A stretch of DNA of 51,279 nt from Deltaproteobacteria bacterium (GTDB lineage Bacteria; Bacillota; Desulfotomaculia; Desulfotomaculales; JAGUVT01), in the NCBI GenBank assembly GCA_020062745.1, contig JAGUVT010000011.1, positions 1-51,279 on the forward strand, read 5' to 3'. A program made the position numbers and the translations under genes. The notes under the pieces were generated by a model. The model was not told the DNA's origin. It ran no database searches and worked only from the letters and a program-made list of their open reading frames with translations. This document shows, piece by piece, positions 1 through 18,135 of this stretch (its first letter is position 1; the number at the start of each line of letters is the position of its first letter).

Positions 1-1048
1 TATAGTCCAGCGCATCATCCCTGGTCAGGGTCTTTTCTTCCAGCACGTCTTTCTGGTAGTAAGGCCAGAACCAGCGGTCGATCAGGGTCGGCCAGGCCCT
101 CTCGGCCCTTTCCCGCTTCCGGAGCATGGTCTGGAACTGCTCGAACTGCAGAGCCTCCGGGAAGTTCCGCGGCGGCTCCGCCGGCACCCGGTCGCATCTC
201 CCGGCGATATCCAGCAGTTCCTGCTTTCTTTGCGGGTCGGTCTCAAAGTTTTCGGCAACGATTTTGGCCAGCCGGCTGAACCGTTTGGCCCAGCGGATAC
301 CGGACTCGCCGATAATCTTCATGGCCCGCCAGTTGTCCAGCTTTTTCAGGTAATCATATTCCCTGTTGAAATCGGGAATGCTCCCCACCCCGTACAGAAA
401 CTCCTCCGCTTCGGCAATCCGTTCGTCGATTTCCTTCAGGATGGCGTTGAAGCCTTTAACATAGTAACTCCATTGGGATGTGCAGTAATTGGCGCCGGCC
501 GACGTGGAATCATTACCGGTAAAGGTCTGCGATGTTTTCGACATTACCTTCTGCCGCCGGCTCAAGATCCTGTCGACCATGGCCTGGTAAGTATATGGTT
601 TCATTAAATCCAGGCATCTCTTGATTTCCACTCTCTCTGCATCATCAATCAAACCGGTACGGTCGTTAAAAAAGTCTTCGTTGAGGGAATAGCCCAGGTT
701 AACATTCCAGAATATCTTATGAGGCGCGGAAGCGTTGTTGCCGACGATCCTGGAATGGTCAAGAATGAAAACGGGAATGGTATCGTTTACCTCCGCTTGC
801 GCCCTGGCCCAGGTGATGATGTACGGCTCGGTTTTGGCTTCTTCCCGGCCGAATACCTCGGCATATACTTTAACCGGATGGGTATCAGCCTTGGTCCCCG
901 GCAGGTAGGACGAGCCTTTGCTGGCCTTGGACCAGACGGCTTTTCTCAAGTAATCAACCCTGGGCGAACGGGCCTTCTCCGCCCACCACCAGTATTCTCT
1001 CTTTTCTAAAGATTCCTGCAATTCTTTTTCTCTGGTTCCCGTGGTCAT
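1..1048 (-). CDS. Glycyl radical enzyme, fumarate-adding (X-succinate synthase) type, N-terminal part
   Basis: About 349 N-terminal residues of a gene running off the left edge, so the catalytic Cys and glycyl loop lie outside the window. The start is an ATG at 1048 preceded by AAGGAGG, giving a protein beginning MTTGTREKELQ. The sequence is a clear paralogue of the two complete enzymes at 4235 and 6875, sharing the block EYWWWAEKARSPRVDYLRK near residue 20, SYLPGTK near 50, and the DNWRAMK and RLAKIVAENFETDP segments near 240-270. Family knowledge: members of this GRE group (BssA, AssA) add a substrate-derived radical to fumarate. It sits 140 bp downstream of the divergent GRE gene and is probably co-transcribed with it. 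Fumarate-adding function is inferred by paralogy only, because the diagnostic residues are not visible here. Confidence 0.85.
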   Translation of the reverse strand, partial: MTTGTREKELQESLEKREYWWWAEKARSPRVDYLRKAVWSKASKGSSYLPGTKADTHPVKVYAEVFGREEAKTEPYIITWARAQAEVNDTIPVFILDHSRIVGNNASAPHKIFWNVNLGYSLNEDFFNDRTGLIDDAERVEIKRCLDLMKPYTYQAMVDRILSRRQKVMSKTSQTFTGNDSTSAGANYCTSQWSYYVKGFNAILKEIDERIAEAEEFLYGVGSIPDFNREYDYLKKLDNWRAMKIIGESGIRWAKRFSRLAKIVAENFETDPQRKQELLDIAGRCDRVPAEPPRNFPEALQFEQFQTMLRKRERAERAWPTLIDRWFWPYYQKDVLEEKTLTRDDALDY

Positions 1049-1188
1049 TTTTTATTTGGCCTCCTTGTTTAAGATTTCTTCGTTTTCCACTGTTCAAGGA
1101 ACATCTGTTCCAGTGTCCGCTACTTCTAAAGAAGACAAAATGATAAAACTTAAAACACCGCCTCCTCTGTTAAAATATCCTTGAAAAA
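1049..1188. other. Intergenic gap with inverted repeat between two GRE genes
   Basis: This 140-bp gap separates the divergent GRE from the downstream partial GRE. It contains a perfect 6-bp inverted repeat GGAACA-TC-TGTTCC (1098-1111), flanked by CACTG (1089-1093) and AGTG, which extends it imperfectly. No T-run follows, so it does not look like an intrinsic terminator. It could be an operator or a processing hairpin. No promoter was recognised. Confidence 0.35.
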
Positions 1189-3627
1189 CTAAAAACATTG
1201 ATGCGTTCTTTCGATTACCGCATTCTGCAGTCCCCTGCTCAAGTCTATAAAATATGCCGCATAACCGCATACTCTTACTATTAACTCCGGATACTCCACC
1301 GGATTTTTTTGCGCGTCCAGCAATGTTTCTTTAGCAACCACCGAAAATTGTATGTGATGCGCCCCCAGATCTACCCATGTTTTTAAATAATCCGCAAACC
1401 TTTCGACAAATTCATCTTTTAAGTACTGAGGCATAAATGTCTGGTTAAACAGGTGATTCCAGGTTTTCAAGGGGTCAATTTTCGACACCGACAACAGCGC
1501 TGCAGTGGGGCCTTTCCGGTCTTTACCCATCATCGGTGATATGCTTCCATCATGGAATGGATCTCCGGCCCTCCTTCCGTCCGGGGTAGCCGCCGTATCA
1601 AGCGAATAGCCGTACGGCGCAGATGCCGCGCTTCCATCAACAACCGCCGGAGTCCAGGTATTGCTGAAATAAGACTTTACTTTACCCACTTCTTCGTTGA
1701 CCTTGATAAATAAATCACTCGCCAGCGAATCAACGTAGTCGTCATCATTCCCGAACTTCGGCGCATCCAGGCACATCTGGCGCAGTTCTTCACAGCCCTC
1801 CCAATTCTTTTTCAGAGCATTTAACAACTCGTCCATAGTTGTTTTTTTCTCATCAAATACCAGTTTTTTAATCGCTGCCAACGAATCCGCCACATTATTC
1901 ACCCCTATAACCATGCAGCAATTATATGGCATATAGGTCCATTTCCTCAGTTCTTCCCCTCTCTCAATACACCCGTCCAGCAAGGCTGACAAAAAAGGCC
2001 TTTGCAGGTATTCTTCGTACAACCAGTTCGCTATGTTGCCGACATAAAACAATCCCCGGGCAGCATACCCGACATGTTCCAGCACCGCATTCATTATTTC
2101 GTCAACTGAGGCAAACTCCAATGGGTCTTTGGTTTCCGGCCCGAGCTGCTCTCCCGTCCTCATATCCCTACCCCGATTTAAAGCCAGTTCAAGACATTTT
2201 GCCACAAAGAGAGGACCGGTGTTCGATGCCCTGTTCACAATGTTTTTGCCGGGAATCGTCGGCCACATACAGCCCATTATCCCATAATCCCTTGCTTCCC
2301 CTAAAGGAACCCCCAGATTTGTCAACCTCGGCACATTAACCTTATCATTAAAAAATGCCGGCTGGGCCACACCCGTATTGAGAACTTCAGTCGCCTTCAC
2401 CAGAAGTTCCCGCGGTGTTTTTTCATGCACTCTCAAGGCAAGCGGCGGCTGCAACGTGTTCAACGCTTTTATTGAATCCAGTACCAGGTGGGTTAGATCG
2501 TTCGTAATGTCCTGCCCATCGGCAGTCGTACCCCCTATTGTCACTGTCTGCCAGCCCAGTCCGCCTCCTCCCATTCCCGACCAGATCGGGGGATGCAGGA
2601 AGCCGGTTTCCAGGAATTTGAGCCATACGCACTCCAGCAACTCCCGTGCGTCTCCTTTTGCAATCCTTCCTTCCGCCAGGTCTTTTTGGTAAAAAGGGTT
2701 AAATATCTTGTCAAACCTTGCCCCGCAACCGGTTTGCGGCTCCTCAATATAATTGACTATGAGGTGAATAAACCAGAAACACTGCAGCGCCTCATGAAGT
2801 GTTCTCGCCGGTTTCTCCGGCACCCTGCCGCAAATTCCGGCTATCTCCCGCAAATTCATTTTTCTTTCTTGATCCTTTTCATTTTGAGCCATTTCCGAAG
2901 CAAGGGCAGAGTACCTCTTTGCCCACTTAACAACGCCGTTCAACGCTATCTTCATGGCTTCCAAATCTCTCTTCATTTCCAGGTATTTTCTGCTGTCAAT
3001 CAGCATTTTTTCATACTTCTCACCTGTATCCAATAATTTATCATTTATTTCCTCAATAATCCCTTCAAAACCGAGACGGAAAACTTTCTCGTAGTCGGGA
3101 GTGCCCCTCTCCCAGTGATAGGTCCAGAAAGCCACCCCCTTGTAGTAAAAAAACTTCTTTAGACTGTCAGGCAAAAGTTCCCGCTCCATACCGTGAACCG
3201 CTCTTGTTTTCCAGTATTTATGCAACTCTTTCATTTCCTCTTTTTCACTTTCGGAAAGCAATTCTTTATACGGCCCGTCCGGTGTGCAAATTGCCTTCTC
3301 CAGCCACCGCCACTGCAGTTCCGGGTAATGGGCCACACACTCCGGCCTGCTGGCAAAGTTGCCGACAATCAACTCATCAGGCTGGATAAAAATAGTCATG
3401 TTTTCAAGTATATGAGCAAGCGCCTTCGCCCGCCTGATTACCATGGGCTCATGTTCGGTTTGCCGGTATGCTTCCGTTATCAGTTTTGCCCTCTCCAGGC
3501 AAAGTTTTACATTCATTCCTTCCCTGAAAGGTTTTTCGCCGCCTGTTTCCTCCTGCAGGCCACGGGCAACAACTTTATGGGTTTTGATCACTACCCTGTC
3601 CTTTAACGTTTGTGTTCTGGCACTCAT
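1189..3627 (-). CDS. Divergent glycyl radical enzyme with GCMWP active-site motif
   Basis: An 812-residue PFL-like glycyl radical enzyme. The presumed thiyl Cys is Cys453 in GIMGCMWPTIPG; the glycyl-radical site is Gly788 in RVCGYAAYF, 24 residues from the C-terminus; the family GNDDD motif precedes it. It differs from the neighbouring GREs throughout: it lacks their WWWAEKARS N-terminus and has no Arg 15 residues after the Cys (nearest is at +13). It also lacks the GCVEP motif of GRE dehydratases and lyases and the CC pair of pyruvate formate-lyase. I cannot name its substrate; it may be another hydrocarbon-type or decarboxylase-type GRE. Start: ATG with GAGGT close upstream. A separate promoter (4032-4061) and a roughly 400-nt leader suggest independent control. 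Certain as a GRE, function unknown. Confidence 0.92.
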   Translation of the reverse strand: MSARTQTLKDRVVIKTHKVVARGLQEETGGEKPFREGMNVKLCLERAKLITEAYRQTEHEPMVIRRAKALAHILENMTIFIQPDELIVGNFASRPECVAHYPELQWRWLEKAICTPDGPYKELLSESEKEEMKELHKYWKTRAVHGMERELLPDSLKKFFYYKGVAFWTYHWERGTPDYEKVFRLGFEGIIEEINDKLLDTGEKYEKMLIDSRKYLEMKRDLEAMKIALNGVVKWAKRYSALASEMAQNEKDQERKMNLREIAGICGRVPEKPARTLHEALQCFWFIHLIVNYIEEPQTGCGARFDKIFNPFYQKDLAEGRIAKGDARELLECVWLKFLETGFLHPPIWSGMGGGGLGWQTVTIGGTTADGQDITNDLTHLVLDSIKALNTLQPPLALRVHEKTPRELLVKATEVLNTGVAQPAFFNDKVNVPRLTNLGVPLGEARDYGIMGCMWPTIPGKNIVNRASNTGPLFVAKCLELALNRGRDMRTGEQLGPETKDPLEFASVDEIMNAVLEHVGYAARGLFYVGNIANWLYEEYLQRPFLSALLDGCIERGEELRKWTYMPYNCCMVIGVNNVADSLAAIKKLVFDEKKTTMDELLNALKKNWEGCEELRQMCLDAPKFGNDDDYVDSLASDLFIKVNEEVGKVKSYFSNTWTPAVVDGSAASAPYGYSLDTAATPDGRRAGDPFHDGSISPMMGKDRKGPTAALLSVSKIDPLKTWNHLFNQTFMPQYLKDEFVERFADYLKTWVDLGAHHIQFSVVAKETLLDAQKNPVEYPELIVRVCGYAAYFIDLSRGLQNAVIERTHQCF

Positions 3628-4031
3628 ACTACCTCATCCCCTCATTTTAACTTTAAAATTAAGGAACCAGGTTCACATCTTTCCCAATAGAACACGTAAA
3701 AACATTCTCCCCCCTTTCTCCGAGATTGCTTCGCCCCGTTCGCAATGACATGAGAGTGTCGAGATCAACCCATCCCCCCACGACTGACATCAGCTCCGAG
3801 ATCTTCACTGAGATCATAATGACAGCAGGGCGTTTCAATTCACTGAAATGACATTACTATCTCTTTCTTATTCCAACTCCAATGGGCAATCTGCTAACAA
3901 GGAAGTGAAGTATTAAAGGTTGGGCACATGGAATCAACTTCTGACCGGGCCTGCCAGATCATGCAAGGACGATCTGAGAACCAACGATTTCAGACCCCTG
4001 AGGGATAAAAATACCATTTCTCATTTATCAT
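3628..4031. other. Long untranslated leader upstream of the divergent GRE
   Basis: No gene is visible here. If the promoter at 4032-4061 is used, this is a roughly 400-nt 5' leader for the 1189-3627 GRE. It contains a partial copy of the dispersed GATTGCTTCG...CGCAATGAC repeat at 3722-3749. I found no recognisable riboswitch consensus, including no cobalamin-box pattern. Confidence 0.4.
3722..3749. repeat. Dispersed palindromic repeat, partial copy
   Basis: A half-element reading GATTGCTTCG then CGCAATGAC around a short GC-rich core. It matches the copies near 9868, 28031 and 33947, so it belongs to a family of small non-coding interspersed elements in this genome. Confidence 0.7.
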
Positions 4032-4061
4032 ACGATAACATTTTTATAAATTGACTGTCAA
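4032..4061 (-). promoter_or_regulatory. Sigma-A-like promoter for the divergent GRE gene
   Basis: On the minus strand, TTGACA (4056-4061) is followed after 18 nt by TATCGT (4032-4037). It lies directly downstream of the terminator-like hairpin that ends the preceding GRE pair. The -35 box is embedded in a perfect palindrome (4050-4062), as expected for a repressor-controlled promoter. Judged by consensus only. Confidence 0.55.
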
Positions 4062-4062
4062 T
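4050..4062. promoter_or_regulatory. Palindromic operator candidate overlapping the -35 box
   Basis: The 13-bp palindrome ATTGAC-A-GTCAAT is centred on the -35 hexamer of the promoter at 4032-4061. Its position suggests a dimeric repressor site. The regulator is not encoded in this window. Confidence 0.4.
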
Positions 4063-4116
4063 AATAAATTTTCCTATAATTCTATCTATTCTTTCGGCTT
4101 TTCCTCCAAAAAAATT

Positions 4117-4162
4117 AAGCCTGCCGAACAAAACTCTTGAACGAGAAATGCTCAGCAGGCTT
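4117..4162 (-). terminator. Hairpin terminator downstream of the GRE pair
   Basis: Arms AAGCCTGC and GCAGGCTT (4117-4124 and 4155-4162) enclose a 30-nt loop. On the minus strand the stem is followed by AATTTTTTT, and on the plus strand by a T-run, so it could act in both directions. It lies 73 bp past the stop codon of the GRE at 4235. Confidence 0.6.
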
Positions 4163-4234
4163 TTTTAGCAAATTACAGGTTGATTTCTAAGTTCCAGCTA
4201 CCAGGCAAGCTGATAAGCCGACTGCCGTCAATTA

Positions 4235-6733
4235 CTAAAGCGTCTGTACCGTGCGGGCAATGATGGTGTCCTGCGTTTTCTTGTTCAATTCCACGAAGCA
4301 GGCGCTGTAACCGGCCACCCGCACAATCAACTCATTATATTTCTCCGGCTCTTTCTGAGCTGCTACCAATGTCTCATTATCAATCATATTAAACTGCACA
4401 TGGTTAATTCCCAGGTCATGCCAGGTTTTGATATAGTTGTGCCACAAATCAAACCCTTTGTCGCCGGCCAGTTGCGTTGGCGACAGCCGCTGGTTGAGCA
4501 GGTTGGCCCGGAACATCGTGGTATGATCCAGCTTGCCGACCGACCTTAAGACCGCCGTGGGCCCCTTTCTGTCCAGACCGGCGCCCGGCGAGCAGCCGCC
4601 GTCGTAGCAGGTGTCGCCGAGACGCCTGCCGTTCGGCAACGCCCCCAGCAGTATGCCGGCAACCGAGTAGGCCGCGATATTCTGCGGCACGCCGGGAATA
4701 CCCCGCGCCCTGGTTCCCCAGCATCTGCACGGCAGAAGAACCTTGTCGCGTACATCTTTATAGGCGCGCACGATAATCTCGTCCGCAGTATCATCGTCGT
4801 TGCCCCACTTGGGCGCATGCACAAAGTCCATCCGTTCGGTCTCGTAGCCTTCCCAGTTGGCCGCCAGCATCTTCAGCACCTGTTCCATACTATACTTCTT
4901 GTCGTCGTAGACCAGCTTTTTCAAGGCCGCCAGCGCGTCCCAGCCGTCCATCCAGATAAATATGGTCAACCAGTTGTTGCCGTATTCCCTTTTCTGGAAG
5001 GCATTCAGCCCCGTCTCCACACACTCTTCGTAGGTGGCGCTAAGGTAAGGCCTGCCTTTTATTTCTTCCACAAAACGCGTCATATTGCGGATTTTGCAGG
5101 CCTCCCAGTGTATCACCCGGTACTGCTCAACGGAGGCGTCAAAAAGTTCGTCAAAGGTCATCCTGGTCGGGTCGCCCGTTTTCGGCCCGATCTGCATTTT
5201 AAATATCGGATTATAGCCGTTCCACAAGGCCAGTTCGACGCATTTTGAACCTAAAGTAGCGCTGGAAGAGTATCTGGCCGGCATTACGCCGTGTCTCGTA
5301 TTGGGGCAGGGTACGATGCAGGCCTGAGCGTTCCAGGTACGGGCTTCCTCTAAAGGAGTGCCGCTCCAGTACATGTTGGACGCAATCAGCACTTCGTCGT
5401 GGCGCATGTTGGGATAACCCAGGCCGTGCCTGATGCATTCAAACACCTGCTTCAGGGTCTGCACCCGGCAGTTGCGGTGGTAGCGGAAGGCAAAGGTCGG
5501 TGAAACCACCCGCACCAGCCTGGCCGCTTCCATGAAGAGATCGGTCAGATCGCTGCAGGCGTCGCTGCCGTCCGGCCAGACTCCGCCAAACGTCCATACG
5601 TAGGGGCCCGGGTCCCCGGTCATCAGCTCCCGGTACTGGCGGTCGCGGAAGCTGCCGTATTCATAAGCCCGGATCAGGTATTCAGCGACATAATCCAGGG
5701 CATCTTCCCTGGTTAGAGATTTTTCTTCCAGCACTTCTTTTTTATAGTACGGCCAGAACCAGCGGTCCGGGGATGTCGGCCATGCGCCGTCGTGCATCTC
5801 GTATTTACGGCCCATTGACTGAAAATGCTCGAACTGCAAGGACTCGGCGAATGTTTCCGGCGCTTCGGCCGGGACATTCCAGCATCTTTGGGAAATTTCC
5901 ATCAGTTCTTGCTTTCTTACCGGGTCGGTTTCAAAGTTTTCGGCGATTATCTTGGCCAGCCGGCTGTATCTCCTGGCCCACCGGACGGCCGCTTCAAGCA
6001 CCATCTTCATGGCTTTCCAGTTATCCAGCTTTTTTAAATACTCGTACTCTTTATTAAAGTCGGGAATGCTCCCCACTCCATACAAGAATTCCTCCGCCTC
6101 AGCCAGTTTTTTATCGATATCGGCAATGATATTATTGAAACCCTTAATGTAATAATCAAACTGGGAGGTGCAGTATGTCGCCGCTTCCAGATGTTTCGCA
6201 CCGGTAAAGGTCTGCGAGGTTTTGGCCATAATCCTCTGCCGGCGGCTTAAATAACGCTCCGTCATGGCCTGGAAGGTAACCGGCCTGAGAAAGTCAATAC
6301 ACTCTTTTACCGTATCCCTTTCGCCTTCCTCAATCAGGCCGGAACGGTCGTTATAAGTGTCGTCGTTTAATGAATAGGACATGGCCGGAGTCCAGAAAAA
6401 CTTATTCGGCGCCGAACCGACATAGCCGACAATTCTGGCATTATCAATAATAAAAATGGGAATCGTATCGAACACTTCCGCCTGCGCTTTGGCCCAGGTG
6501 AACATGTACGGCTCGGTTCTTGCCTCGGGCTCGCTCCATACTTCTTTATACACCTTGAGGCCGTGAATGCACATTTTAGTCCCCGGCAAATAAGTAGAAC
6601 CCTTGCTGGCCTTGGACCAGACAGCTTTTCTCAAGTAATCAACCCTGGACGAGCGGGCTTTCTCCGCCCACCACCAGAATTCTCTTTTTTCCAAAGATTC
6701 TTGCGCTTCTTTTCCTCTTATCGCTGTTGTCAA
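4235..6733 (-). CDS. Fumarate-adding type glycyl radical enzyme, catalytic subunit (X-succinate synthase-like)
   Basis: An 832-residue GRE related to benzylsuccinate/alkylsuccinate synthase alpha subunits. Cys472 lies in NAQACIVPCPNTRHG; Arg487 is exactly 15 residues later, the spacing I recall between BssA Cys493 and fumarate-binding Arg508. The glycyl site is Gly808 in RVAGYSACF, and the C-terminus ends QDTIIARTVQTL, similar to the QDxII-RT tails of this subfamily. A GNDDD motif is present. Start: TTG at 6733 with AAAGGAGG nine bases upstream. It lies 141 bp downstream of its 832-residue paralogue at 6875. Expected role: addition of a C-H-activated substrate to fumarate in the cytoplasm, after activation by a radical-SAM activase not found in this window. 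Subfamily is well supported, substrate unknown. Confidence 0.88.
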   Translation of the reverse strand: MTTAIRGKEAQESLEKREFWWWAEKARSSRVDYLRKAVWSKASKGSTYLPGTKMCIHGLKVYKEVWSEPEARTEPYMFTWAKAQAEVFDTIPIFIIDNARIVGYVGSAPNKFFWTPAMSYSLNDDTYNDRSGLIEEGERDTVKECIDFLRPVTFQAMTERYLSRRQRIMAKTSQTFTGAKHLEAATYCTSQFDYYIKGFNNIIADIDKKLAEAEEFLYGVGSIPDFNKEYEYLKKLDNWKAMKMVLEAAVRWARRYSRLAKIIAENFETDPVRKQELMEISQRCWNVPAEAPETFAESLQFEHFQSMGRKYEMHDGAWPTSPDRWFWPYYKKEVLEEKSLTREDALDYVAEYLIRAYEYGSFRDRQYRELMTGDPGPYVWTFGGVWPDGSDACSDLTDLFMEAARLVRVVSPTFAFRYHRNCRVQTLKQVFECIRHGLGYPNMRHDEVLIASNMYWSGTPLEEARTWNAQACIVPCPNTRHGVMPARYSSSATLGSKCVELALWNGYNPIFKMQIGPKTGDPTRMTFDELFDASVEQYRVIHWEACKIRNMTRFVEEIKGRPYLSATYEECVETGLNAFQKREYGNNWLTIFIWMDGWDALAALKKLVYDDKKYSMEQVLKMLAANWEGYETERMDFVHAPKWGNDDDTADEIIVRAYKDVRDKVLLPCRCWGTRARGIPGVPQNIAAYSVAGILLGALPNGRRLGDTCYDGGCSPGAGLDRKGPTAVLRSVGKLDHTTMFRANLLNQRLSPTQLAGDKGFDLWHNYIKTWHDLGINHVQFNMIDNETLVAAQKEPEKYNELIVRVAGYSACFVELNKKTQDTIIARTVQTL

Positions 6734-6874
6734 CTTTGCGAACCTCCTTTAAACTTTTCAAACTGCAATTTTCAAAGACCTGACCTCATCTTTTGATAAG
6801 CTAAAACCTTAAGTTCAAACCACCTCCTGTTCTTGATATGCATCTTACTTATTACATGTATCTTACATATAAAG

Positions 6875-9373
6875 TTAAAGGGTCTGCACGTTGCGGGCAA
6901 TAATAGTGTCCTGGGTTTTCTTGTTTAAATCCACAAACATGGCGCTGTAACCGGCTACCCGCACCATCAACTCACTGTATTTCTCCGGTTCCCGCTGGGC
7001 CGCTACCAGGGTCTCGTTATCCACCATGTTGAACTGCACATGGTTGATTTCCAGGTCGTACCATGTCTTAATATAGCTCAACCACAACTCAAAACCCTTT
7101 TCTCCGGCTAGTTGAGTCGGGGACAGCCGCTGGTTCAACAGGGAGGCCCGGAACATGGTTTTGTGATCCAGCTTGCCTACCGACCGCAAGACTGCCGTAG
7201 GCCCCTTTTTGTCCAGACCGGCACCCGGCGAGCAGCCGCCGTCGTAACAGGTATCTCCCCAGCGCCGGCCGTTCGGTAAAGCGCCGATGCGGGTGCCGCC
7301 GACTACGTAACCGGCTATGTTCTGCGGCAGGATGCTCCAGGAGGTACCGCTCCATTCAATGGCCGGACGGCAGGCCTGTTCGGTAAAATCCTTATGGAAC
7401 TTTACCGCTACTTCATCCGCATAGTCGTCGTCGTTGCCCCATTTGGGCGCCCGCACGAAGTCCATCCGCATTTCCTCGTAACCTTCCCAGTTGGCGCGCA
7501 GGGCTTCCAGTAATTGCTTCATGGTGTACTTTTTCTCTTCAAAGACCAGCTTCTTAACCGCCACCAGACCGTCAAACATATCCATCCAGCAGAAGTAAGA
7601 CTTCCACGGGTTACCCCTTTCTCTTACCATGGCGGAGTTTTCACCGGCCTCCACGCACCGCTCAAAGGTGGCCGAGCAGAATGGCTTGGCAAATTCTTTC
7701 ATTTCTACATGGCGGCAAATATGGCGGATGCGCACGGTCTCCCACAAGATGTACTTCATCTGTTCCAGGGTGGCATTGTAAAGATCTTCATAGGTAAAAT
7801 TAAGGGGATCCCCCGTTTTCGGTCCGATCTGCATCTTAAAAAGCGGGTCCCAACCGTTGTTTAAAGCCAGTTCCATTGCTTTCGAGCAGATACTCATGGC
7901 GGTGGCATACCTTATCGGCTGGGCGCCCCATTTAGTAGTGGGACAGGGTGACATGCAGGCCTGGTGGACCCACGTGCGGGCTTCTTCCAGCGGGTGCTTG
8001 CACCAGTTCATGATATTGGCGATACAAACAGGGTCATGCCGGATAGACGGATAGCCCAGACCGTGACGGATGCATTCAAAAACTTTACGCAGGGTGGAAA
8101 CCCGCGCTTTGGCATGGTACCGGAAACCATAAGTCGGGTCGGCTACCCTGGTCAGAACGGCAGCTTCCAGCAAAGCATCAGTCAAATCGTTGCAGGCATC
8201 GGTGCCGTCTTCCGGCTTAACCCCGCCCAGCGTCCAGACATAAGGCCCGGAACTTCCCTGCATCAACTCGCGGGAAATGCGGCTGGCGCTGCGACTGCAT
8301 TCAAAGGCCCTGATCTGCCACTCACAGACATAGTCCAGAGCATCTTCCCTGGTAATATTCTTTTCGTCGATAACATCCTTTTTATAGTGCGGCCAGTACC
8401 AGTAATCCGGCCTTGCCGGCCAGGCAGTATAAGGCATTTCGTACTGCCTCAAATGGTTGAAGAAAAGGTCGAATTGAATGGCTTCCCACAAGTGCCCGGG
8501 CGGCTCGGCCGGTACTTTGTAACAGGTTTCTGCAATACGCAAAAGCTCCTGTTTTCTCACCGGGTCGGTCTCGAAGTTTTCGGCAATTATCCTGGCCAGC
8601 CGGCTGTAACGCCTGGCCCACCGGATTGCCGCTTCCAGGGTTATCCTCATGGCCTCCCAGGTATCAAGCTTATCCAGCAGGGGCAATTGTTCCGGCGCAT
8701 CGGGCACGTCTTCGTGCAGTTTCTTATGCGCTTCAGCCATTTTTTCTTCAATTACCTTAATAATGTGGTTAAAACCTTTCAGCACAAAATCATACTGAAT
8801 GGTGGGATTTTCATTACTGCTGTTGTGCGCGTTGCCGGAGTTGGTAATACAAAGGCTGGCATTCATTTTTTCCCGGCGGGTAAGATAACGTTCGCATTTC
8901 GCCTGGTAGGTGCGGGGTTGCCACCAGTCCAGCGCTTCCTTGATCCAGGGCCGGTCACTTTCTTCAATCAGGTCGGAGCGGTCGTTATAAGTATCCATGT
9001 TGAGGCTGTAGCAAACCAGGTGATTCCACATAATCATATGGGGGGCGGAGCCCATATACCCCACGATCCTGGCCCGGTCTACGATGAAGATGGGAATGGT
9101 ATCCAGCATCTCGGCCCAGGCCCTGGCTCTGGTAATAAAGAAAGGCTCCGTCGCTGCCAGCGGACGCTGGAACACTTCCGTAAACACTCTGAGCATGAAG
9201 GAATCGTACTTTATGCCCGGCAGGTAGAGGGAACCCTTGTGCGTCTTGGCCCAAACCGCTTTCCTCAGGTAATCAACCCTCGGCGAACGGGCCTTTTCCG
9301 CCCACCACCAGTACTCCCTCTTCTCATATAGTTCCTGTAATTCCTTTTCTTTTTCTTGGGATACCACCGTCAT
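6875..9373 (-). CDS. Fumarate-adding type glycyl radical enzyme, catalytic subunit (X-succinate synthase-like)
   Basis: An 832-residue paralogue of the 4235-6733 enzyme. Cys473 is in VHQACMSPCPTTKWG; Arg488 is at +15, matching the fumarate-binding Arg spacing in BssA; Gly808 lies in RVAGYSAMF; the C-terminus is again QDTIIARNVQTL. Start chosen at ATG 9373 (MTVVSQEKEKELQ) because AAAGGAGG lies just upstream; the reading frame is open further, but that extension crosses a tandem repeat and lacks similarity to the paralogues. It differs from its neighbour in a region (about residues 165-195) rich in Asn/Ser and around the Cys, as expected if the two act on different substrates. Probably the first GRE translated from the promoter at 11800. 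Confidence 0.9.
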   Translation of the reverse strand: MTVVSQEKEKELQELYEKREYWWWAEKARSPRVDYLRKAVWAKTHKGSLYLPGIKYDSFMLRVFTEVFQRPLAATEPFFITRARAWAEMLDTIPIFIVDRARIVGYMGSAPHMIMWNHLVCYSLNMDTYNDRSDLIEESDRPWIKEALDWWQPRTYQAKCERYLTRREKMNASLCITNSGNAHNSSNENPTIQYDFVLKGFNHIIKVIEEKMAEAHKKLHEDVPDAPEQLPLLDKLDTWEAMRITLEAAIRWARRYSRLARIIAENFETDPVRKQELLRIAETCYKVPAEPPGHLWEAIQFDLFFNHLRQYEMPYTAWPARPDYWYWPHYKKDVIDEKNITREDALDYVCEWQIRAFECSRSASRISRELMQGSSGPYVWTLGGVKPEDGTDACNDLTDALLEAAVLTRVADPTYGFRYHAKARVSTLRKVFECIRHGLGYPSIRHDPVCIANIMNWCKHPLEEARTWVHQACMSPCPTTKWGAQPIRYATAMSICSKAMELALNNGWDPLFKMQIGPKTGDPLNFTYEDLYNATLEQMKYILWETVRIRHICRHVEMKEFAKPFCSATFERCVEAGENSAMVRERGNPWKSYFCWMDMFDGLVAVKKLVFEEKKYTMKQLLEALRANWEGYEEMRMDFVRAPKWGNDDDYADEVAVKFHKDFTEQACRPAIEWSGTSWSILPQNIAGYVVGGTRIGALPNGRRWGDTCYDGGCSPGAGLDKKGPTAVLRSVGKLDHKTMFRASLLNQRLSPTQLAGEKGFELWLSYIKTWYDLEINHVQFNMVDNETLVAAQREPEKYSELMVRVAGYSAMFVDLNKKTQDTIIARNVQTL

Positions 9374-9465: not shown

Positions 9466-9789
9466 TTACTGCATGGCTATTTTCTTCTTCATTTGCCTGA
9501 TAAATATATTGATGCCTTCTATATGCAACAACTGGTTGAGAGTTCTGAGTTCTTTAATCAAACTTTTAGCATGAACAAAATCATTCTCGCTGACAGCCTG
9601 TTCTAACCGGCCGGAGAGAAATTTCGCCTTCTCTAAATTCTTTTCCCTTATTTCGTGACGATCAACCGTGATCGTCCGGCGGCAGTCGGGACACTCCCGC
9701 ACTTCTGTCGGACCGCATCATTTCGTATTACAGATAAACTTGAATAAACCGGCATCCCCTTCAAAACCGCAATGCTCGCATCTTACCAC
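9466..9789 (-). CDS. Small two-CxxC protein with in-frame TGA: selenoprotein candidate or broken gene
   Basis: Reading from a GTG at 9789 (GGAGG nine bases upstream) gives VVRCEHCGFEG...FICNTK, then TGA (9718-9720), then CGPTEVRECPDC and a helical Lys/Glu-rich tail to 9466. Across the TGA the frame matches the intact 53-residue protein at 11312 residue for residue in spacing (NTTLDAPTAYRECPKC against NTK-X-CGPTEVRECPDC), so the TGA interrupts a genuine gene and stands where the paralogue has Leu. It could encode selenocysteine, or be a nonsense mutation or a sequence error. The total would be 107 residues with CxxC pairs at residues 4-7 and 33-36. The tail (about 65 residues) is absent from the paralogues. 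It is next upstream of the 6875 GRE, so a role as a metal-binding accessory is plausible. Confidence 0.6.
9684..9703 (-). promoter_or_regulatory. Possible bacterial SECIS-like hairpin after the in-frame TGA
   Basis: Fourteen bases after the TGA a stem AGU(G)CGGG pairs with CCCGACU around the 5-nt loop AGUGU. The apical loop starts 22 nt after the TGA and has G in its second position, which fits the general bacterial SECIS layout. Caution: the CGGGAGTGTCCC core also occurs in the TGA-less paralogue because it encodes Arg-Glu-Cys-Pro, so the hairpin may be a by-product of coding. Confidence 0.25.
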
Positions 9790-9833
9790 CTTTCTTCACC
9801 TCCCGGCTTTTAAAGCGTGAAAAGCGAGTGCGA

Positions 9834-9893
9834 CGAAGCAATCCCCCCGGCTTTCCTGACAAAAAGGGATTGCTTCGCTCCGCCCGCAATGAC
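9834..9893. repeat. Dispersed palindromic repeat with perfect 12-bp arms
   Basis: CGAAGCAATCCC (9834-9845) and GGGATTGCTTCG (9866-9877) form perfect arms around a 20-nt loop. The right part continues as GATTGCTTCG...CGCAATGAC (9868-9893), matching the family seen at 3722, 28031 and 33901. It sits in the gap between the Cys-rich gene at 9466 and the small-subunit gene at 9931, possibly an insertion into the operon. Confidence 0.75.
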
Positions 9894-9930
9894 AACCCAA
9901 AATCTTTAAAGCCGGCCTTAGCTGCCAGCC

Positions 9931-10098
9931 CTATGATTTAGTCTGGAAGTTTGCGCACCCCTCGGCATTATCTTCAGATTTCCTGGGTTTTGCAGTCCAG
10001 TAAGCACACCTTGGATCAACCACCCTGGTCACACAGTCTCCCTGGGTGGGATCATCCTCCAATGGGAAAAACCATTTGCATTCCTCACAAATCGGCAT
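9931..10098 (-). CDS. BssC/AssC-like small GRE subunit ([4Fe-4S], HiPIP-like)
   Basis: A 55-residue protein, MPICEECKWFFPLEDD..., with the pattern CxxC near the start (Cys4, Cys7), GDCV (Cys21) and GCANF near the C-terminus. This spacing, with the YWTAKP segment between, resembles the small gamma subunit of benzylsuccinate/alkylsuccinate synthases, which carries a [4Fe-4S] cluster and packs on the catalytic subunit. An additional Cys lies at 31. The start ATG has AAAGGAGGAAG upstream. Position upstream of the GRE genes supports the assignment. Too short for routine gene callers. Confidence 0.75.
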   Translation of the reverse strand: MPICEECKWFFPLEDDPTQGDCVTRVVDPRCAYWTAKPRKSEDNAEGCANFQTKS

Positions 10099-10126
10099 TC
10101 TTTCTTCCTCCTTTAAGTTTCAAAAC

Positions 10127-10546
10127 TCAAGCCAATTTTTCTCCGGCAATCGGAATAGAGAGAGCATAGGCTTCAGTAACCTTTATCTTCCCTACCGCTT
10201 CCACCTTGCCCGGCAAGTTATACTTCTGCATTGTTTCGTTAATTTCTGCCGACATCTCTTCAAAAAGCGGGCCGGACGTCTCCCACTTAAGAAAGGTGCC
10301 TTTAATTTGAAAACCTTCAAACGGCGGCTGAAAAACTGCCACTGCCGCCTTACGGGTAGCTTCCAGGTTCTGCTTCGTCCTGCTGTTCGGCACACAGTTG
10401 GCAAATGCCAGCATTTCTTCGTCCAGTGCCCGCACCGACCCGATCGGCACCACGTTCACCTTTTTCCCCTTGTCTATCGTCGCCAGCATTTTCATATTTC
10501 CCCGGTTGTTTATAGCCTCAAGCACATCCTCAGGTAATTTGGCCAT
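10127..10546 (-). CDS. Pyridoxamine 5'-phosphate oxidase-like FMN-binding split-barrel protein
   Basis: A 139-residue protein with the layout of small flavin-binding split-barrel proteins: an N-terminal helix (LPEDVLEAINN), a strand MKMLATIDKGKKVNVVPIG, the MLAFANC segment, RTKQNLEATRKAAVAVF, and a central FQIKGTFLKWETSGP strand. It is paralogous to the adjacent gene at 10574. Start ATG with AGGAGGG upstream. Family members bind FMN, F420 or haem; the cofactor cannot be decided here. It lies inside the GRE operon between small-subunit genes, so a redox or protective role for the oxygen-sensitive radical enzymes is conceivable but unproven. Confidence 0.75.
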   Translation of the reverse strand: MAKLPEDVLEAINNRGNMKMLATIDKGKKVNVVPIGSVRALDEEMLAFANCVPNSRTKQNLEATRKAAVAVFQPPFEGFQIKGTFLKWETSGPLFEEMSAEINETMQKYNLPGKVEAVGKIKVTEAYALSIPIAGEKLA

Positions 10547-10573
10547 GCCTCACCCTCCTAACCAGGCCGCCCT

Positions 10574-10975
10574 CTAAGCCAGTTTCGCTCCCGGAGTATC
10601 CATACAAGCTGAATATACTTCGTCCACACTGCCCAGTCCAACAGCCTTGATCTGCATTTTAATGGCATTATATACCATCTCGTTTACTGAAGCAGCCAAC
10701 GGTCCGGTTTCCTGGAATCCTTCAAAAGTTCCCTTAATCTGGTAAGACTTCATCTGCGGCGTTAATACGGTCACCGCAAACTTCTTGGTGCTATCCAAAT
10801 TGTCCCGCGTCTTCCCCATTCTGAGATCAGCAAATGCCACCATTTCTTCTCCCAACGGTGTTATGGTGGCTACTATAGCGGCGTTCGGCAATCCGGTATC
10901 GTCTGCAGTAGCCAGTACCTTCAACGAATGTTCATCGCCCAAAGCAGTTATTACCTCTCGCGGCATCTTCGCCAT
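10574..10975 (-). CDS. Pyridoxamine 5'-phosphate oxidase-like FMN-binding split-barrel protein
   Basis: 133 residues when started at ATG 10975 (MAKMPREVITALG), which has AAAGGGGAA upstream and matches the start of the paralogue MAKLPEDVLEAIN; the longer open frame to 11038 lacks similarity. It shows the same landmarks: KVLATADDTGLPNAAIV, EMVAFADLRMGKTRDNL, KKFAVTVL and YQIKGTFEGFQETGP. Two tandem split-barrel genes inside a GRE operon suggest a heterodimer or a duplicated flavoprotein. Specific function unknown. Confidence 0.78.
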   Translation of the reverse strand: MAKMPREVITALGDEHSLKVLATADDTGLPNAAIVATITPLGEEMVAFADLRMGKTRDNLDSTKKFAVTVLTPQMKSYQIKGTFEGFQETGPLAASVNEMVYNAIKMQIKAVGLGSVDEVYSACMDTPGAKLA

Positions 10976-11044
10976 TACAATTCCCCTTTCCGGAACATCG
11001 TTCGGTGCGCCCTTAAACCACTCGACAACCTGCCGCAAAGACGC

Positions 11045-11278
11045 CTACTTTTCATCAAACCCTCTTGCTACCCGTACTGTTGGATCCGACATAAACTCCG
11101 AAACATTTGTCCTGATCCGATCTTGCTCGATAAACTGCTGGCACTTACCGGCATCATCATAAATTCCTACCTCTTTGCCAATCCCGTCATCATCTAAAAA
11201 GGCTATACAGTAACCATTGTCCGAAGCCGAGCTATCCGTGCAGTTCATAAAGTTTTTACAGTCACCACACCTTCTCAT
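11045..11278 (-). CDS. Second BssC/AssC-like small GRE subunit ([4Fe-4S], HiPIP-like)
   Basis: 77 residues, MRRCGDCKNFMNCTDSS..., with CxxC (Cys4, Cys7), GYC (Cys24) and GKCQQF (Cys46), plus Cys13. The Cys order and the acidic central part match the gamma-type small subunit of fumarate-adding GREs; compare GDCV...GCANF in the 55-residue protein at 9931. A roughly 28-residue C-terminal extension after the last Cys is extra. Strong ribosome site AAGGAGGGG five bases before the ATG. Two such subunits with several GREs suggest each catalytic subunit may have its own partner. Confidence 0.72.
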   Translation of the reverse strand: MRRCGDCKNFMNCTDSSASDNGYCIAFLDDDGIGKEVGIYDDAGKCQQFIEQDRIRTNVSEFMSDPTVRVARGFDEK

Positions 11279-11311
11279 GACGACCCCTCCTTATGGCTCC
11301 GGATACCCTTC

Positions 11312-11473
11312 TCAGGCCGACTTTTCCTTCTTTTCCTCTTCTAACTCGTTAACGATCACCCATTTGAAACACTTGGGACACTCCCGGTAAGCCGTCGGAG
11401 CATCCAGGGTGGTGTTGTAAAGATACCGGAACGTTGACTTAACACCCTCGTAACCACAATGCTCACACTTCAT
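11312..11473 (-). CDS. Small two-CxxC (zinc-ribbon/rubredoxin-like) protein
   Basis: 53 residues, MKCEHCGYEGVKSTF..., with CEHC near the N-terminus and RECPKC about 25 residues later, then an acidic/basic tail. The two CxxC pairs suggest a mononuclear metal site or a small Fe-S site. Its ATG overlaps the stop of the upstream 78-residue gene (ATGA), so translation is coupled, and AGGAG precedes it. It is the intact homologue of the TGA-interrupted gene at 9466. Likely an accessory or beta-like subunit of the GRE complex, by position only. Confidence 0.7.
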   Translation of the reverse strand: MKCEHCGYEGVKSTFRYLYNTTLDAPTAYRECPKCFKWVIVNELEEEKKEKSA

Positions 11474-11706
11474 TCCGCTTTTCTCTCCTTTCTTTTTTTA
11501 GCTTTAAATGTCTGGCCCCGCAACTTGCCCAGGCCCCACACTTCAATATCCCTCATTTTCTCATCTTCCACCATCTCATCGCAATATACCATTTCTCCAC
11601 ATCGAGGACAACGGCGAAGAGTGGCGGCGCCTATTTCTTCGGCCTGACAGATATACTTAAATTCCATACGCGAACCGTTATATCCACACTTTCCACACTC
11701 TGGCAT
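11470..11706 (-). CDS. Small two-CxxC protein, first gene of the GRE operon
   Basis: 78 residues from ATG 11706 (MPECGKCGYNGSRME), chosen because GGGGGAC lies about ten bases upstream and because the homologues start directly at the first CxxC; the frame is open further upstream. It has CGKC, then RRCPRC about 27 residues later, followed by an acidic stretch and a basic Lys/Arg tail. It is paralogous to the 53-residue protein that overlaps its 3' end by 4 bp. It is the first gene after the promoter at 11800-11829. Exact family not recognised. Confidence 0.65.
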   Translation of the reverse strand: MPECGKCGYNGSRMEFKYICQAEEIGAATLRRCPRCGEMVYCDEMVEDEKMRDIEVWGLGKLRGQTFKAKKRKERKAE

Positions 11707-11799
11707 CAAACCATGTCCCCCGTGTTTTGAATTACTGGATGTGATCTTAAGAGGCAAAAGCAATTTACGCAGCTAAGGAAGGAAATAATTCTTACCTGT

Positions 11800-11857: not shown

Positions 11858-12625
11858 TTATTCTCCCTTAAACTCCGGTTTGCGTTTCTCAACAAAAGCA
11901 AGCGGGCCTTCTGCCGCATCCTTGCTCCAGTGCACCGCTTCCGCCATAGCCTTCAGTTCCTTTTCCACCGCCGGACTCAATTTCCGGTCTGCAATCAATT
12001 TGCTAATCATTCGCTTGGTTACTTTTACCGCCAGAGGCGCATTTTCCTCAGCCATTTCCCGGGCCAGAGAGTAAACAGCCGCAGGCAGTTCGGCGCCGGA
12101 AACAACCCGGTTCACCAGCCCCAACTCGCCGGCTCGCCGGACATCAATCAACCTGCCTGTTAAAAGCATCTCCTTGGCCGCACCCATACCCACCAGGTTA
12201 ATCAGTCTTTGGATAGCGGTATAGTAATAAATCCGCCCCAATTTAACCAGGTTGGCCCCAAAACAGGCATTCTCAGCAGCCAGCCGAAAATCGGCGATTA
12301 CCGCCAGATCAAGACCGGCGCCGATAGAATAACCATAAATCATGGCAATAACCGGAGCAGGGTAATTGATTAAACTCTCTAAACAATATTGCAAGGCAGT
12401 AATGGTATTTACACTCGCCCCGGCCAGGTCCACCCCGGAGCAGAAGGCTTTTTCCCCGGAACCGCGGAGCACAACCACCCTGTTCCTGCCTTCCTCTTTT
12501 AATTCATTTAAAACACCCCCCAGTTGCAATAAAGCTGCTTCGTTCAAAGCATTCTTCTTCTCAGGCCGGTTGATGGTAAGAGTACAGATATGCCCTTCTT
12601 CTTCTTTCAAAATTTCTTCTGCCAT
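11858..12625 (-). CDS. Crotonase-superfamily protein lacking hydratase glutamates (possible acyl-CoA decarboxylase or isomerase)
   Basis: 255 residues with the crotonase fold: INRPEKKNALNE at the N-terminus, CSGVDL oxyanion-hole segment and GYSIGAGLDLA. Compared from memory with rat enoyl-CoA hydratase, Glu144 is replaced by Asp (GAGLD) and the Glu164 position by Leu (FGANLVKLG). The following KLGRIYYYTAIQRL puts a Tyr where the crotonase-type methylmalonyl-CoA decarboxylase of E. coli has its active-site Tyr. It is therefore unlikely to be an ordinary hydratase; decarboxylation of an alkylmalonyl-CoA is one hypothesis, isomerisation another. Five bp separate it from the upstream crotonase. 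Confidence 0.85.
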   Translation of the reverse strand: MAEEILKEEEGHICTLTINRPEKKNALNEAALLQLGGVLNELKEEGRNRVVVLRGSGEKAFCSGVDLAGASVNTITALQYCLESLINYPAPVIAMIYGYSIGAGLDLAVIADFRLAAENACFGANLVKLGRIYYYTAIQRLINLVGMGAAKEMLLTGRLIDVRRAGELGLVNRVVSGAELPAAVYSLAREMAEENAPLAVKVTKRMISKLIADRKLSPAVEKELKAMAEAVHWSKDAAEGPLAFVEKRKPEFKGE

Positions 12626-12630
12626 AATTG

Positions 12631-13440
12631 CTATTTCCCTTTAAAAATCGGCGCTCTCTTTTCGCGGATGGCACTGACCCCTTCCAGGTAGTCCTGGGTG
12701 GTCAGGGTAATTGATTCACAAATGGCGGCAGCGTCCAGAGCTTCTTCCAGATCAGCGCCCAGACTTTTATATACCTGGGCTTTCATCAGCCTGACGGCAA
12801 CCGGCGGCCCGCCGGCAATCTTTTTAGCCATGATCATCGTTTCCTTCTCCAGGTCGGCGTCACTGTATACATTGTTTAAAATGCCGATGCGTCCGGCTTC
12901 TCTGCCGTCTATCGCATCTCCGGTAAACAGCATCTCCATAGCCTTACCCACCCCCATGGCCCTGGGGTAAAGCCAGGTGGCGCCAAAACCGGGGAAAAGG
13001 CCGATTTTCACAAAGCCGCACATAAACCTGCTTCCTTCACCGCCGGTCCGGATATCGCAGGCCAGGGCCAGGTCAAATCCAGCCCCCACGCAGGCCCCGT
13101 TAACCATGGCGATGGTCGGCTTCTCCAGCTTGTGAACGCCGTGGATCAGTTTCTTCGCCGCCCGGAACATGAAAGAACGCCGCAGACCCTCCACACTTTG
13201 AGCATCAATCTCTTCATTTGGCCCGCCGGCCATGATATCAATATCCGCCCCGGCACAGAATCCTTTGCCCGCGCCGGTAATTACCAGAACCCTGACGTCA
13301 TCATCATAAGCAACTTCTTCTACCGCCGCTACCAGTTCTTCCATCATCTTCCGGTTAATGGCATTTCTTCGGTCCGGCCGGTTTAAAATAAGGGTGGCGA
13401 TATGGTCTTCTTTTTTTAGAATAATGGTTTCAAAGGCCAT
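12631..13440 (-). CDS. Crotonase-superfamily (enoyl-CoA hydratase/isomerase family) protein
   Basis: 269 residues with LNRPDRRNAINRK, the CAGADIDIMAGG oxyanion-hole segment and VNGACVGAGFDLALACDIR. As in its neighbour, the Glu144 equivalent is Asp (GAGFD) and the Glu164 equivalent is not acidic (FMCGFVKIG), so normal hydration is doubtful. It does not have the Tyr cluster of the next gene, so the two probably catalyse different steps. It is preceded by AAGGAGGT in the 22-bp gap after the mutase gene. Acts on CoA thioesters; the exact reaction is unknown. Confidence 0.85.
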   Translation of the reverse strand: MAFETIILKKEDHIATLILNRPDRRNAINRKMMEELVAAVEEVAYDDDVRVLVITGAGKGFCAGADIDIMAGGPNEEIDAQSVEGLRRSFMFRAAKKLIHGVHKLEKPTIAMVNGACVGAGFDLALACDIRTGGEGSRFMCGFVKIGLFPGFGATWLYPRAMGVGKAMEMLFTGDAIDGREAGRIGILNNVYSDADLEKETMIMAKKIAGGPPVAVRLMKAQVYKSLGADLEEALDAAAICESITLTTQDYLEGVSAIREKRAPIFKGK

Positions 13441-13462
13441 TTTTCGTTTCGACCTCCTTCAA

Positions 13463-15205: not shown

Positions 15206-15251
15206 CTCCTTATATTACCTCCTTAAAAGGTGGCGTGGCTAACAGACACCA

Positions 15252-15279
15252 GCCGTCAGGGCTGTTAACCGCTGACGGC
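15252..15279. other. Intercistronic hairpin between CoA-transferase and mutase genes
   Basis: GCCGTCAG and CTGACGGC form a perfect 8-bp stem around a 12-nt loop. A competing pairing of GGCTAACAG with CTGTTAACC just outside is also possible. No T-run follows, so this looks like an mRNA processing or stability element rather than a terminator. Confidence 0.45.
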
Positions 15280-15291
15280 CAAATAGCTGCT

Positions 15292-16788: not shown

Positions 16789-16800
16789 ACTTCCACCCTC

Positions 16801-18135
16801 CTAAACAGGGTTACACAAAGATACCAGCGCGCTCACATCGGAAACTGTTTCCAGAGTCTTGATCAATTCCACTATCCGGTCGGCGTTGGACCCGGGTATT
16901 ACCAGCGTGGCCAGTCCCTTAAATTTCTGCACCATCTCCTCAAAGCTGAGGGGGTTGTTCGGCATTCCTTTGGGCATGGAAACAAAGTTAGTGTATTCTT
17001 TCCCGTCCTTTGTTTTTACGGCAGTTTTTGACTCGACCAGACTAAATTCCGGATTTACGGTCGCCTTTACCTTTTTCCTGAGCTTAACTATTTCCGGGTC
17101 GTTTACCTTTTCATCGGTAAACTGGCCTTCGTCGGCAGCACCCTTTAGAATAGCCAGCGCTGCGCAATGGTAAACGCTGAATTTGCCTTCCAATCCGGTC
17201 TTCGGATCGGTTTGCCCGGCCGCATCAAGGTTTAACTTGGCACATTCAATCTGCACTTCTTCAATGTCGTCAGCCTTCAAATTCAACTTGCTCAGTTCTT
17301 TAAGGGCTTCAATGGTGGTATGAGTGCCGGCGCAGGAGGCATAACCCTTAAAACCGACCCCGTATAAATGATAATCCTCCTCAAGACCGGCCAGCAACTT
17401 GCTTTCATCGGGTTCCTTGGTAAATATATCCAGAAAGCCGTACTTGCCCTCAAGAATCTCCTGTGAACTGGTAAACCCCCTTTCGGCCAGCATGGCTGCC
17501 ATCACCCCGCTCATAGCCGCTTTGCCGGGGTGGAAAGGCTTGCACATGGTGCCGAAAACCTGTCTTACACCACATACCTGAGTGCCGGCAATACCGAACG
17601 CATTAACCAGCCTGTCCGCATCCAGGTTGAGGAGCTTGCCAGCACCTGCCGCTGCGCCAAAGTGTCCGATGGTTGAAGTGGCATGCCAGCCAATATCGTA
17701 ATGCGACCGGCCGGCTGCCGCGCCGGCTCTTGCCTCCACTTCAAAACCCAGCGCGAAAGCCGTTAAAAGATCGGCCCCGCTTGCTTTTTTGTGCTCGGCC
17801 ACAGCCAGTACCGCCGGCGCCAGCGGGACGGTAGGATGGCTGAACGAGGCGGGATGAACGTCGTCATAGTCCAGCACATGAGACATGGCGCCGTTTACCA
17901 ATGCAGCGTTTAAAACACTGGTTTTGATCCCTTTACCCAGGATGGTTGCCTGCTTCTCACCTCCTATAGCCGTCACAAAGTCGATCAATATAGGCGCGAT
18001 ATCTTCTCTGGAACCGCCCAGGGTAACCCCCAGCCAGTCCAGAATACATAGTTTAGCCTGCTCAATGGCTTTACTGGAAATGTCCTTGTAAGCAGTTCTA
18101 CTGACATACTCAGCCAGTTTCCTGGTTGCTCCCAT
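16801..18135 (-). CDS. MmgE/PrpD family protein
   Basis: 444 residues matching the MmgE/PrpD fold: KLCILDWLGVTLGG near 30, HVLDYDDVHPASFSHPTVPLAPAVLA near 86-111, GWHATSTIGHFGAAA near 150, KPFHPGKAAMSG near 200 and YGVGFKGYASCAGTHTTIEAL near 255. The family contains 2-methylcitrate dehydratase, cis-aconitate decarboxylase and imino-disuccinate epimerase. No prpC or prpB is nearby, so a methylcitrate cycle is not supported. Between a carboxyltransferase and a CoA-transferase it more likely acts on a branched dicarboxylate of the pathway, but this is unknown. Start ATG, 18 bp after the preceding stop. Confidence 0.85.
   Translation of the reverse strand: MGATRKLAEYVSRTAYKDISSKAIEQAKLCILDWLGVTLGGSREDIAPILIDFVTAIGGEKQATILGKGIKTSVLNAALVNGAMSHVLDYDDVHPASFSHPTVPLAPAVLAVAEHKKASGADLLTAFALGFEVEARAGAAAGRSHYDIGWHATSTIGHFGAAAGAGKLLNLDADRLVNAFGIAGTQVCGVRQVFGTMCKPFHPGKAAMSGVMAAMLAERGFTSSQEILEGKYGFLDIFTKEPDESKLLAGLEEDYHLYGVGFKGYASCAGTHTTIEALKELSKLNLKADDIEEVQIECAKLNLDAAGQTDPKTGLEGKFSVYHCAALAILKGAADEGQFTDEKVNDPEIVKLRKKVKATVNPEFSLVESKTAVKTKDGKEYTNFVSMPKGMPNNPLSFEEMVQKFKGLATLVIPGSNADRIVELIKTLETVSDVSALVSLCNPV

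Follow-up and report, generated by a model that had tools for sequence, protein, structure and literature searches.

What a bacterium gains from several fumarate-adding enzymes encoded side by side is the question raised by the left 9.4 kb of the stretch of DNA analysed here (the window). The window takes in the whole of contig C90 (51,279 bp), which belongs to a 2.69 Mb genome (148 contigs, 99.65% complete) from a bacterium of the Desulfotomaculum kind, a presumed sulfate reducer. Four glycyl radical enzyme (GRE) genes lie head to tail in these 9.4 kb, all on the minus strand, and directly upstream of them stands a small gene, delta3, interrupted by an in-frame TGA. With a probability of roughly 0.8, the window can be read as an alkylsuccinate synthase operon, in which tandem, diverged catalytic (alpha) subunits would use one common accessory set, to which a selenocysteine (Sec)-containing delta3 would be added. 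The array consists of the following genes:

2-1048 (feature 1-1048), minus strand: X-succinate synthase alpha, third paralogue, N-terminal 349 aa (sequence identities, contig-end analysis)
1189-3627, minus strand: divergent GRE, 812 aa, assigned to an unnamed subfamily, 'Cb' (tree, relatives, motif, predicted fold)
4235-6733, minus strand: predicted alkylsuccinate synthase alpha, 832 aa, TTG start, Cys472/Arg487 (tree, residue map, 46% identity to MasD)
6875-9373, minus strand: predicted alkylsuccinate synthase alpha, 832 aa counted from the ATG that AAAGGAGG precedes, Cys473/Arg488 (MasD match, tree, residue map)

All four score far above the Pfam PFL-like cut-off, so that chance matching is of no concern. 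From their sequences, three (one cut by the contig end) are identified as X-succinate synthases and the fourth as another kind of GRE. The original prediction of four tandem GREs, three of them fumarate-adding and one partial, was right in coordinates, lengths and motifs: both complete alphas carry an Arg at +15 from the Cys and the RVAGYSA motif. The left-edge copy ends before the Cys, Arg and Gly positions, and motif results refer to the two complete alphas. It had also been proposed that the left edge cuts the array, which the contig ends bear out. The N-terminal pieces on C90 and C23 (91% identical in amino acids and likewise in DNA) end at an identical codon, while contigs C104 and C107 begin at one common codon near the alpha 3' end, with 96% DNA identity. 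These common break codons show the window edge to be an assembly break in a repeated gene, and at least two alpha genes probably have a common middle part that was collapsed in the assembly.

In a GRE tree (quick method, SH-aLRT support only, midpoint-rooted, with long branches), aryl and alkyl X-succinate synthases split with full support, the starred alkyl clade standing apart from the BssA clade. The two complete array alphas fall on the alkyl side, inside the X-succinate synthase clade, where the original prediction had placed them. A first alkyl clade, Mas/Ass, holds MasD, Desulfatibacillum, Smithella and the genome's own C107 and C145 genes, which branch beside Actinomycetota. Its sister, a second starred clade, contains the array enzymes, the C84 and C23 genes, Peptococcaceae SCADC, UBA2203, UBA9916 and several metagenome-assembled genomes (MAGs) of Desulfobacterota and Chloroflexota. 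Among solved enzymes, MasD (9o8u; 841 bits) comes closest to 6875-9373, followed by BssA (555 bits). The catalytic Cys, Arg and Gly align with Cys477/Arg492/Gly814 of MASS and Cys493/Arg508/Gly829 of BSS. The fumarate-binding Arg is thereby kept in both complete alphas, and the expectation that Arg487/488 serves the fumarate site agrees with this alignment, the position having been tested by alignment and not by a model. Taken together, the tree, the residues of the active site and the accessory subunits classify the array alphas as alkylsuccinate synthases.

The divergent enzyme 1189-3627 lies outside that clade, among the other GREs. Its best relatives (57-61% identity) come from Desulfobacterota MAGs rich in X-succinate synthases, and its predicted fold is that of a GRE, closest to glycerol dehydratase (1r8w) and BSS. 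As the best match in sequence and fold is 1r8w, an enzyme of the PFL2/glycerol dehydratase type, acting as dehydratase or lyase in an unrelated pathway, is conceivable, though doubtful: the dehydratase motif C-x-E is absent from all 23 members of the subfamily, whereas 18 of 23 other GREs have it. The Cys loop instead reads C-M/V-x, mostly followed by PGKN, with a conserved Arg at +13. The enzyme is accordingly assigned, from its sequence, to an unnamed subfamily ('Cb') lacking C-x-E. Its relatives adjoin genes for X-succinate synthases, alkylmalonyl-CoA-type mutases or 2-oxoacid oxidoreductases; such neighbours suggest an acid substrate, and a carboxylate would be our guess. A constant association with X-succinate synthases was considered and ruled out by the neighbourhoods of the fetched relatives, one of which (L055) is adjacent to such a gene, the others adjoining 2-oxoacid oxidoreductase, B12 mutase or acyl-CoA genes. 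Among the subfamily members, which include L055:12839-15280 and L218:9808-12234, some have their own activase and adjoining 2-oxoacid:ferredoxin oxidoreductase-like genes. Broken GRE remains related to 1189-3627 (46% over the N-terminus) are found on contig C43 of the source genome (L023:5785-6641).

The alkyl-type genes of the genome are not limited to the window. Whole copies lie on C90 (two), C107, C145 and C84, and C23 carries a copy without its N-terminus; pieces at contig ends are N-terminal on C90, C23 and C72 and C-terminal on C104, C107 and C37. A further copy on C34 (L022:8275-9273) has in-frame deletions and has lost the Cys loop; it is either a paralogue in decay or a chimera produced by the assembly. 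A fair count from these sequences is about nine alkyl-type catalytic genes. In the class (113 genomes, this one included), no other genome exceeds a single such gene: four of the 112 others carry one, and seven have aryl-type X-succinate synthase genes only. The array had been called unusual against loci with one or two catalytic subunits. It is not unique: tandem arrays of alkylsuccinate synthases also occur in some Desulfobacterota MAGs, such as CSMAG_2994, with three in tandem (L048), nine whole copies and several GREs of the 1189-3627 kind, and three AssA are known in 'Ca. Alkanivorans nitratireducens' (PMC9576796).

Such multiplicity could be mere redundancy, with recent duplicates kept for dosage or decaying, and no division of substrates. 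The C34 and C23 copies fit decay within the family, and two copies probably have an identical middle part, as the assembly break suggests. This explanation is nonetheless unlikely for the window, where the complete alphas are 61% identical to each other and the partial one 67% identical to 4235-6733; the complete pair, moreover, belongs to different starred subclades, each with close relatives in other genomes, and the alphas differ at gate and pocket residues.

To compare the pockets, active-site positions were mapped onto the MASS structure (PMC12358834). Enzyme 6875-9373 has Asn at MASS Tyr194 and Ser at Thr598, while 4235-6733 retains the Tyr and the Thr, together with MASS-type T598/F600; the paralogues thus differ at fumarate-binding or pocket-lining positions. 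Activity on aromatic or other activated hydrocarbons would be in line with the aryl-like residues of 6875-9373 (N at MASS 194, S at 598, Q at 690), but is improbable given the alkyl clade, F600 and the MASS-type gamma and delta subunits. The BSS pocket set (S199, N615, I617, G512/G513) is not found in the array alphas, I617 and G512/G513 being missing. BSS positions 384/385 are occupied by Leu/Met in both complete alphas.

The differing gate and pocket residues suggest that the array probably covers several short-chain or branched alkanes. Short chains are the best guess because the array subclade holds Peptococcaceae SCADC, of the published cluster III. In MasD cluster III of Stagars et al. 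(PMC4703814), the Peptococcaceae single cell is grouped with BuS5 and Propane60-GuB, BuS5 representing a propane/butane cluster; this link is taken from the published clustering. Iso-alkane cultures enrich Peptococcaceae too (PMC8161226). Alkanes, short-chain or branched, are therefore probably the substrates. The earlier idea of an enzyme set for a range of hydrocarbons fits these differences without being proven by them, and its 'alkanes or aromatics' narrows to alkanes as the likelier choice.

The small-subunit genes that adjoin the array upstream (9466-11763), absent from the first account of this DNA, are the following:

9466-9789, minus strand: delta3, rubredoxin-like and three-helix domain, in-frame TGA at 9720-9718 (TGA/Cys exchange, Sec machinery, fold)
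9931-10098, minus strand: gamma subunit, 55 aa, CX2C...C...C (MasC E=1.7e-11, BSS gamma E=1.2e-4)
10127-10546, minus strand: PNPOx-like flavin-fold protein 2 (PF01243; C104 copy 81% identical)
10574-11038, minus strand: PNPOx-like flavin-fold protein 1 (PF01243 slightly below cut-off; C104 copy 68% identical)
11045-11278, minus strand: beta subunit candidate, 77 aa, CX2C...C...C (homologue of C107 beta)
11312-11473, minus strand: delta subunit, 53 aa, Cys3/Cys6/Cys32/Cys35 spaced exactly as in MASS delta (MasE E=1.5e-9)
11470-11763, minus strand: delta2, second delta-like rubredoxin-type subunit (MasE E=2.8e-4)

Where tested, no Pfam or NCBIfam family scored above its cut-off for gamma, beta, delta or delta3, and of the two PNPOx-like proteins one alone passed the PF01243 cut-off. 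The beta candidate has no direct PDB match, its C107 homologue matching MasB (E=3.5e-10). By sequence, none of the BSS subunits is related to MASS delta or beta (PMC12358834). Contig C104 carries a parallel module, which encodes two GRE-type activases, gamma, a 100% identical delta, delta2, beta and two PNPOx-like proteins, plus a radical SAM protein and a MoxR-type ATPase; as far as they extend, the fragments of SCADC and UBA9916 follow its gene order.

The decisive feature of delta3 is its TGA. The gene reads MVRCEHCGFEGDAGLFKFICNTK-TGA-CGPTEVRECPDC..., from a GTG start preceded by GGAGGTG, and no Pfam or NCBIfam family covers it. Its C104 paralogue has TGA at the matching codon and is 51% identical over the 83 codons beyond; past the TGA, differences between the two genes are fewest at second and most frequent at third codon positions, a pattern of purifying selection. 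Of 34 distinct homologues from the fetched loci, 19 have TGA at this codon, 14 have TGC/TGT and one has ATT (Ile), whereas TAA and TAG do not occur. Four more TGA genes come from BRH_c4a, SCADC, UBA9916 and C104. In-frame TGA genes beside alkylsuccinate synthases are exemplified by L018:4590-4916 and L066:13295-13645, the latter from an isolate, Desulfosarcina alkanivorans PL12; Desulfatibacillum (L056/L064) has a Cys form. Wherever a locus contains an alkyl-type alpha, the homologue lies on the alpha strand, mostly 0.3-3.3 kb downstream. Homologues beside alkylsuccinate synthases occur in four phyla, Actinomycetota having so far Cys forms only. Within the class, 12 of 113 genomes have the family, 11 of them together with an X-succinate synthase (the exception, G053, has a Cys form). 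In aryl-type genomes, the matches span the rubredoxin domain alone.

Most Desulfobacterota TGA forms show a 7-bp hairpin with a 6-nt loop that resembles a selenocysteine insertion sequence (SECIS), its 5' arm beginning at base 11 when counting starts from the U of UGA. Six or all seven of its pairs form in 14 of 18 TGA genes, compared with 1 of 10 Cys genes (Fisher p = 0.0008, uncorrected for relatedness), and the hairpin base shows a G-C to C-G exchange. The genome encodes SelA, SelB and tRNA-Sec (TCA). SelB scores above the cut-off in 16 of 19 TGA genomes and in 12 of 13 Cys genomes tested, and is thus consistent with Sec without being discriminating. The predicted delta3 model (pLDDT 93) combines a rubredoxin-like part with three helices; its top PDB match, a weak one, is MASS delta (9o8u_D, E=8.6e-3, root-mean-square deviation 1.3 A over 45 columns). 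In this model, the Sec sits in a loop joining two strands, outside the four metal-knuckle cysteines.

A pseudogene or sequencing error, with TGA as a true stop, would explain the interrupted frame and the unclear SECIS of the window gene, but is rejected as highly improbable, since the same codon is TGA in the 51% identical paralogue and in at least 20 other genes, is mostly Cys elsewhere, and is followed by conserved coding sequence in a genome equipped for Sec. Reading TGA as tryptophan (code 4) was ruled out by the Cys found there in homologues. Delta3 very probably represents a new family of selenoproteins, linked to the activation of alkanes without oxygen, and no open-literature paper on a selenoprotein linked to alkylsuccinate synthase was found, subscription papers lying outside the search. 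It also appears likely that a MASS-delta-like rubredoxin domain, with Sec in the inter-knuckle hairpin and a helical domain attached, is a standing partner of alkylsuccinate synthase in four phyla, which would bring selenium chemistry into alkane activation.

To the computed elements (gene content, clade, conserved catalytic residues, accessory homology and TGA/Cys exchange), a working scheme adds inferred substrates, common accessory use and a selenol role, its alpha chemistry being modelled on BSS and MASS, where it is established. Several diverged alphas would use one set of gamma and beta (Fe-S), delta and delta2 (rubredoxin-like) and delta3. Activases encoded on C104 would install the radical on the C-terminal glycine, from which it would move to the active-site cysteine; this would abstract a hydrogen atom from the alkane, and the alkyl radical would add to fumarate, held by the +15 arginine. 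With gate and pocket positions varying, the alpha set would cover several short-chain or branched alkanes. Delta3, read through the TGA as a selenoprotein, would dock by its rubredoxin-like domain at the MASS delta site, close to the domain that bears the glycyl radical. The selenol of delta3 might act as a redox or hydrogen-atom donor by which the radical enzyme is protected or reset; such a radical-care role is put forward tentatively.

Several points weigh against the operon reading. The array enzymes have Thr/Ser at the MASS Trp185 gate and Gln at Glu690, so that their substrates are not readable from MASS. The same residues occur in SCADC and UBA2203, and Trp185 is replaced by Thr, Ser, Ala or Gly in most second-clade members; gate and Glu690 are features of the solved MASS, and not necessarily traits that define the family. 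The SECIS of the window's own delta3 gene is not clearly resolved, and 3 of the 19 TGA genomes have no SelB over the cut-off, probably owing to incomplete MAGs. Finally, a single accessory set for all alphas is suggested by gene order alone.

The closest solved system, MasBCDE of strain HxN1 (9o8u, PMC12358834), agrees in alpha clade, Cys/Arg/Gly, gamma and delta homologues, and beta via a paralogue. Unlike it, the window has several alphas per accessory set, 46-48% identical to MasD, without the Trp185 gate and with Gln for Glu690; delta2 and the selenoprotein delta3 are not listed in the published seven-gene mas cluster (PMC12358834). Peptococcaceae SCADC AssA, of MasD cluster III (PMC4161757, PMC4703814), belongs to a common subclade (4235-6733 is 71% identical to SCADC), and its operon resembles the window and C104 in activases, gamma, delta3 and MoxR ATPase. 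SCADC has one alpha, and one masD is reported for BuS5 (PMC5660070), compared with about nine in the source genome, three in tandem. By its published description, 'Ca. Alkanivorans nitratireducens' (AssA1-3; PMC9576796, PMC10811727) similarly combines several AssA in one gaseous-alkane oxidiser, but these are ~90% alike versus 61-67% in the window, whose array also includes a GRE of another kind. BssABC, likewise a GRE, shares the Cys493/Arg508/Gly829 equivalents and a gamma homologue; it differs in its 35-40% identity, pocket residues and lack of delta.

Alkylsuccinate synthases break some of biology's strongest C-H bonds and control how constituents of natural gas and oil are removed in the absence of oxygen; about nine in one genome offer a natural set for relating pocket residues to substrates. 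Should the selenoprotein regularly accompany these enzymes, the subunit lists in print are perhaps incomplete, ordinary gene callers truncating or overlooking delta3 at its TGA, and in vitro enzymes from such hosts may miss a factor for protecting or resetting the radical. The selenol role is testable in the PL12 isolate.

Further along the window, past the accessory genes, lie candidates for the subsequent pathway:

11858-13440, minus strand: two enoyl-CoA hydratase-family genes, 11858-12625 and 12631-13440 (PF00378)
13463-15205, minus strand: methylmalonyl-CoA mutase-type large subunit, candidate alkylmalonyl-CoA mutase (PF01642)
15292-16788, minus strand: CoA transferase family, candidate for alkylsuccinate activation (PF13336/PF02550)
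16801-20966, minus strand: MmgE/PrpD, carboxyltransferase and thiolase, candidates for decarboxylation and beta-oxidation (PF03972, PF01039, PF00108)
21144-22895, minus strand: second methylmalonyl-CoA mutase-type large subunit (PF01642)

By family assignment, these genes (11858-22895) would fit the CoA activation, mutase, carboxyltransferase and beta-oxidation steps. The genome also contains dsrA, which points to sulfate or sulfite reduction.

A MoxR-type ATPase and a partner of ~560-590 aa conservedly adjoin the selenoprotein gene (L018:4994-7544; L264:4110-6627; L268:6519-8216). The C104 copy of the partner has no Pfam match, and the two are possibly a chaperone pair for the enzyme. Short MASS-delta-like rubredoxin genes also occur near aryl-type X-succinate synthases, although BSS has no delta (L249-L254; G103, G109, G035, G126, G025, G044). 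Similar short sequences lie around the array at about 3673-3768 and 9761-9900 (frames SLRAERSNP / CHCERGEAIS), possibly an interspersed repeat. At 48531-51278, on the plus strand, the right contig end cuts a large gene in which S-layer homology, fibronectin-like segments and repeated beta-propeller-like segments can be made out by eye.

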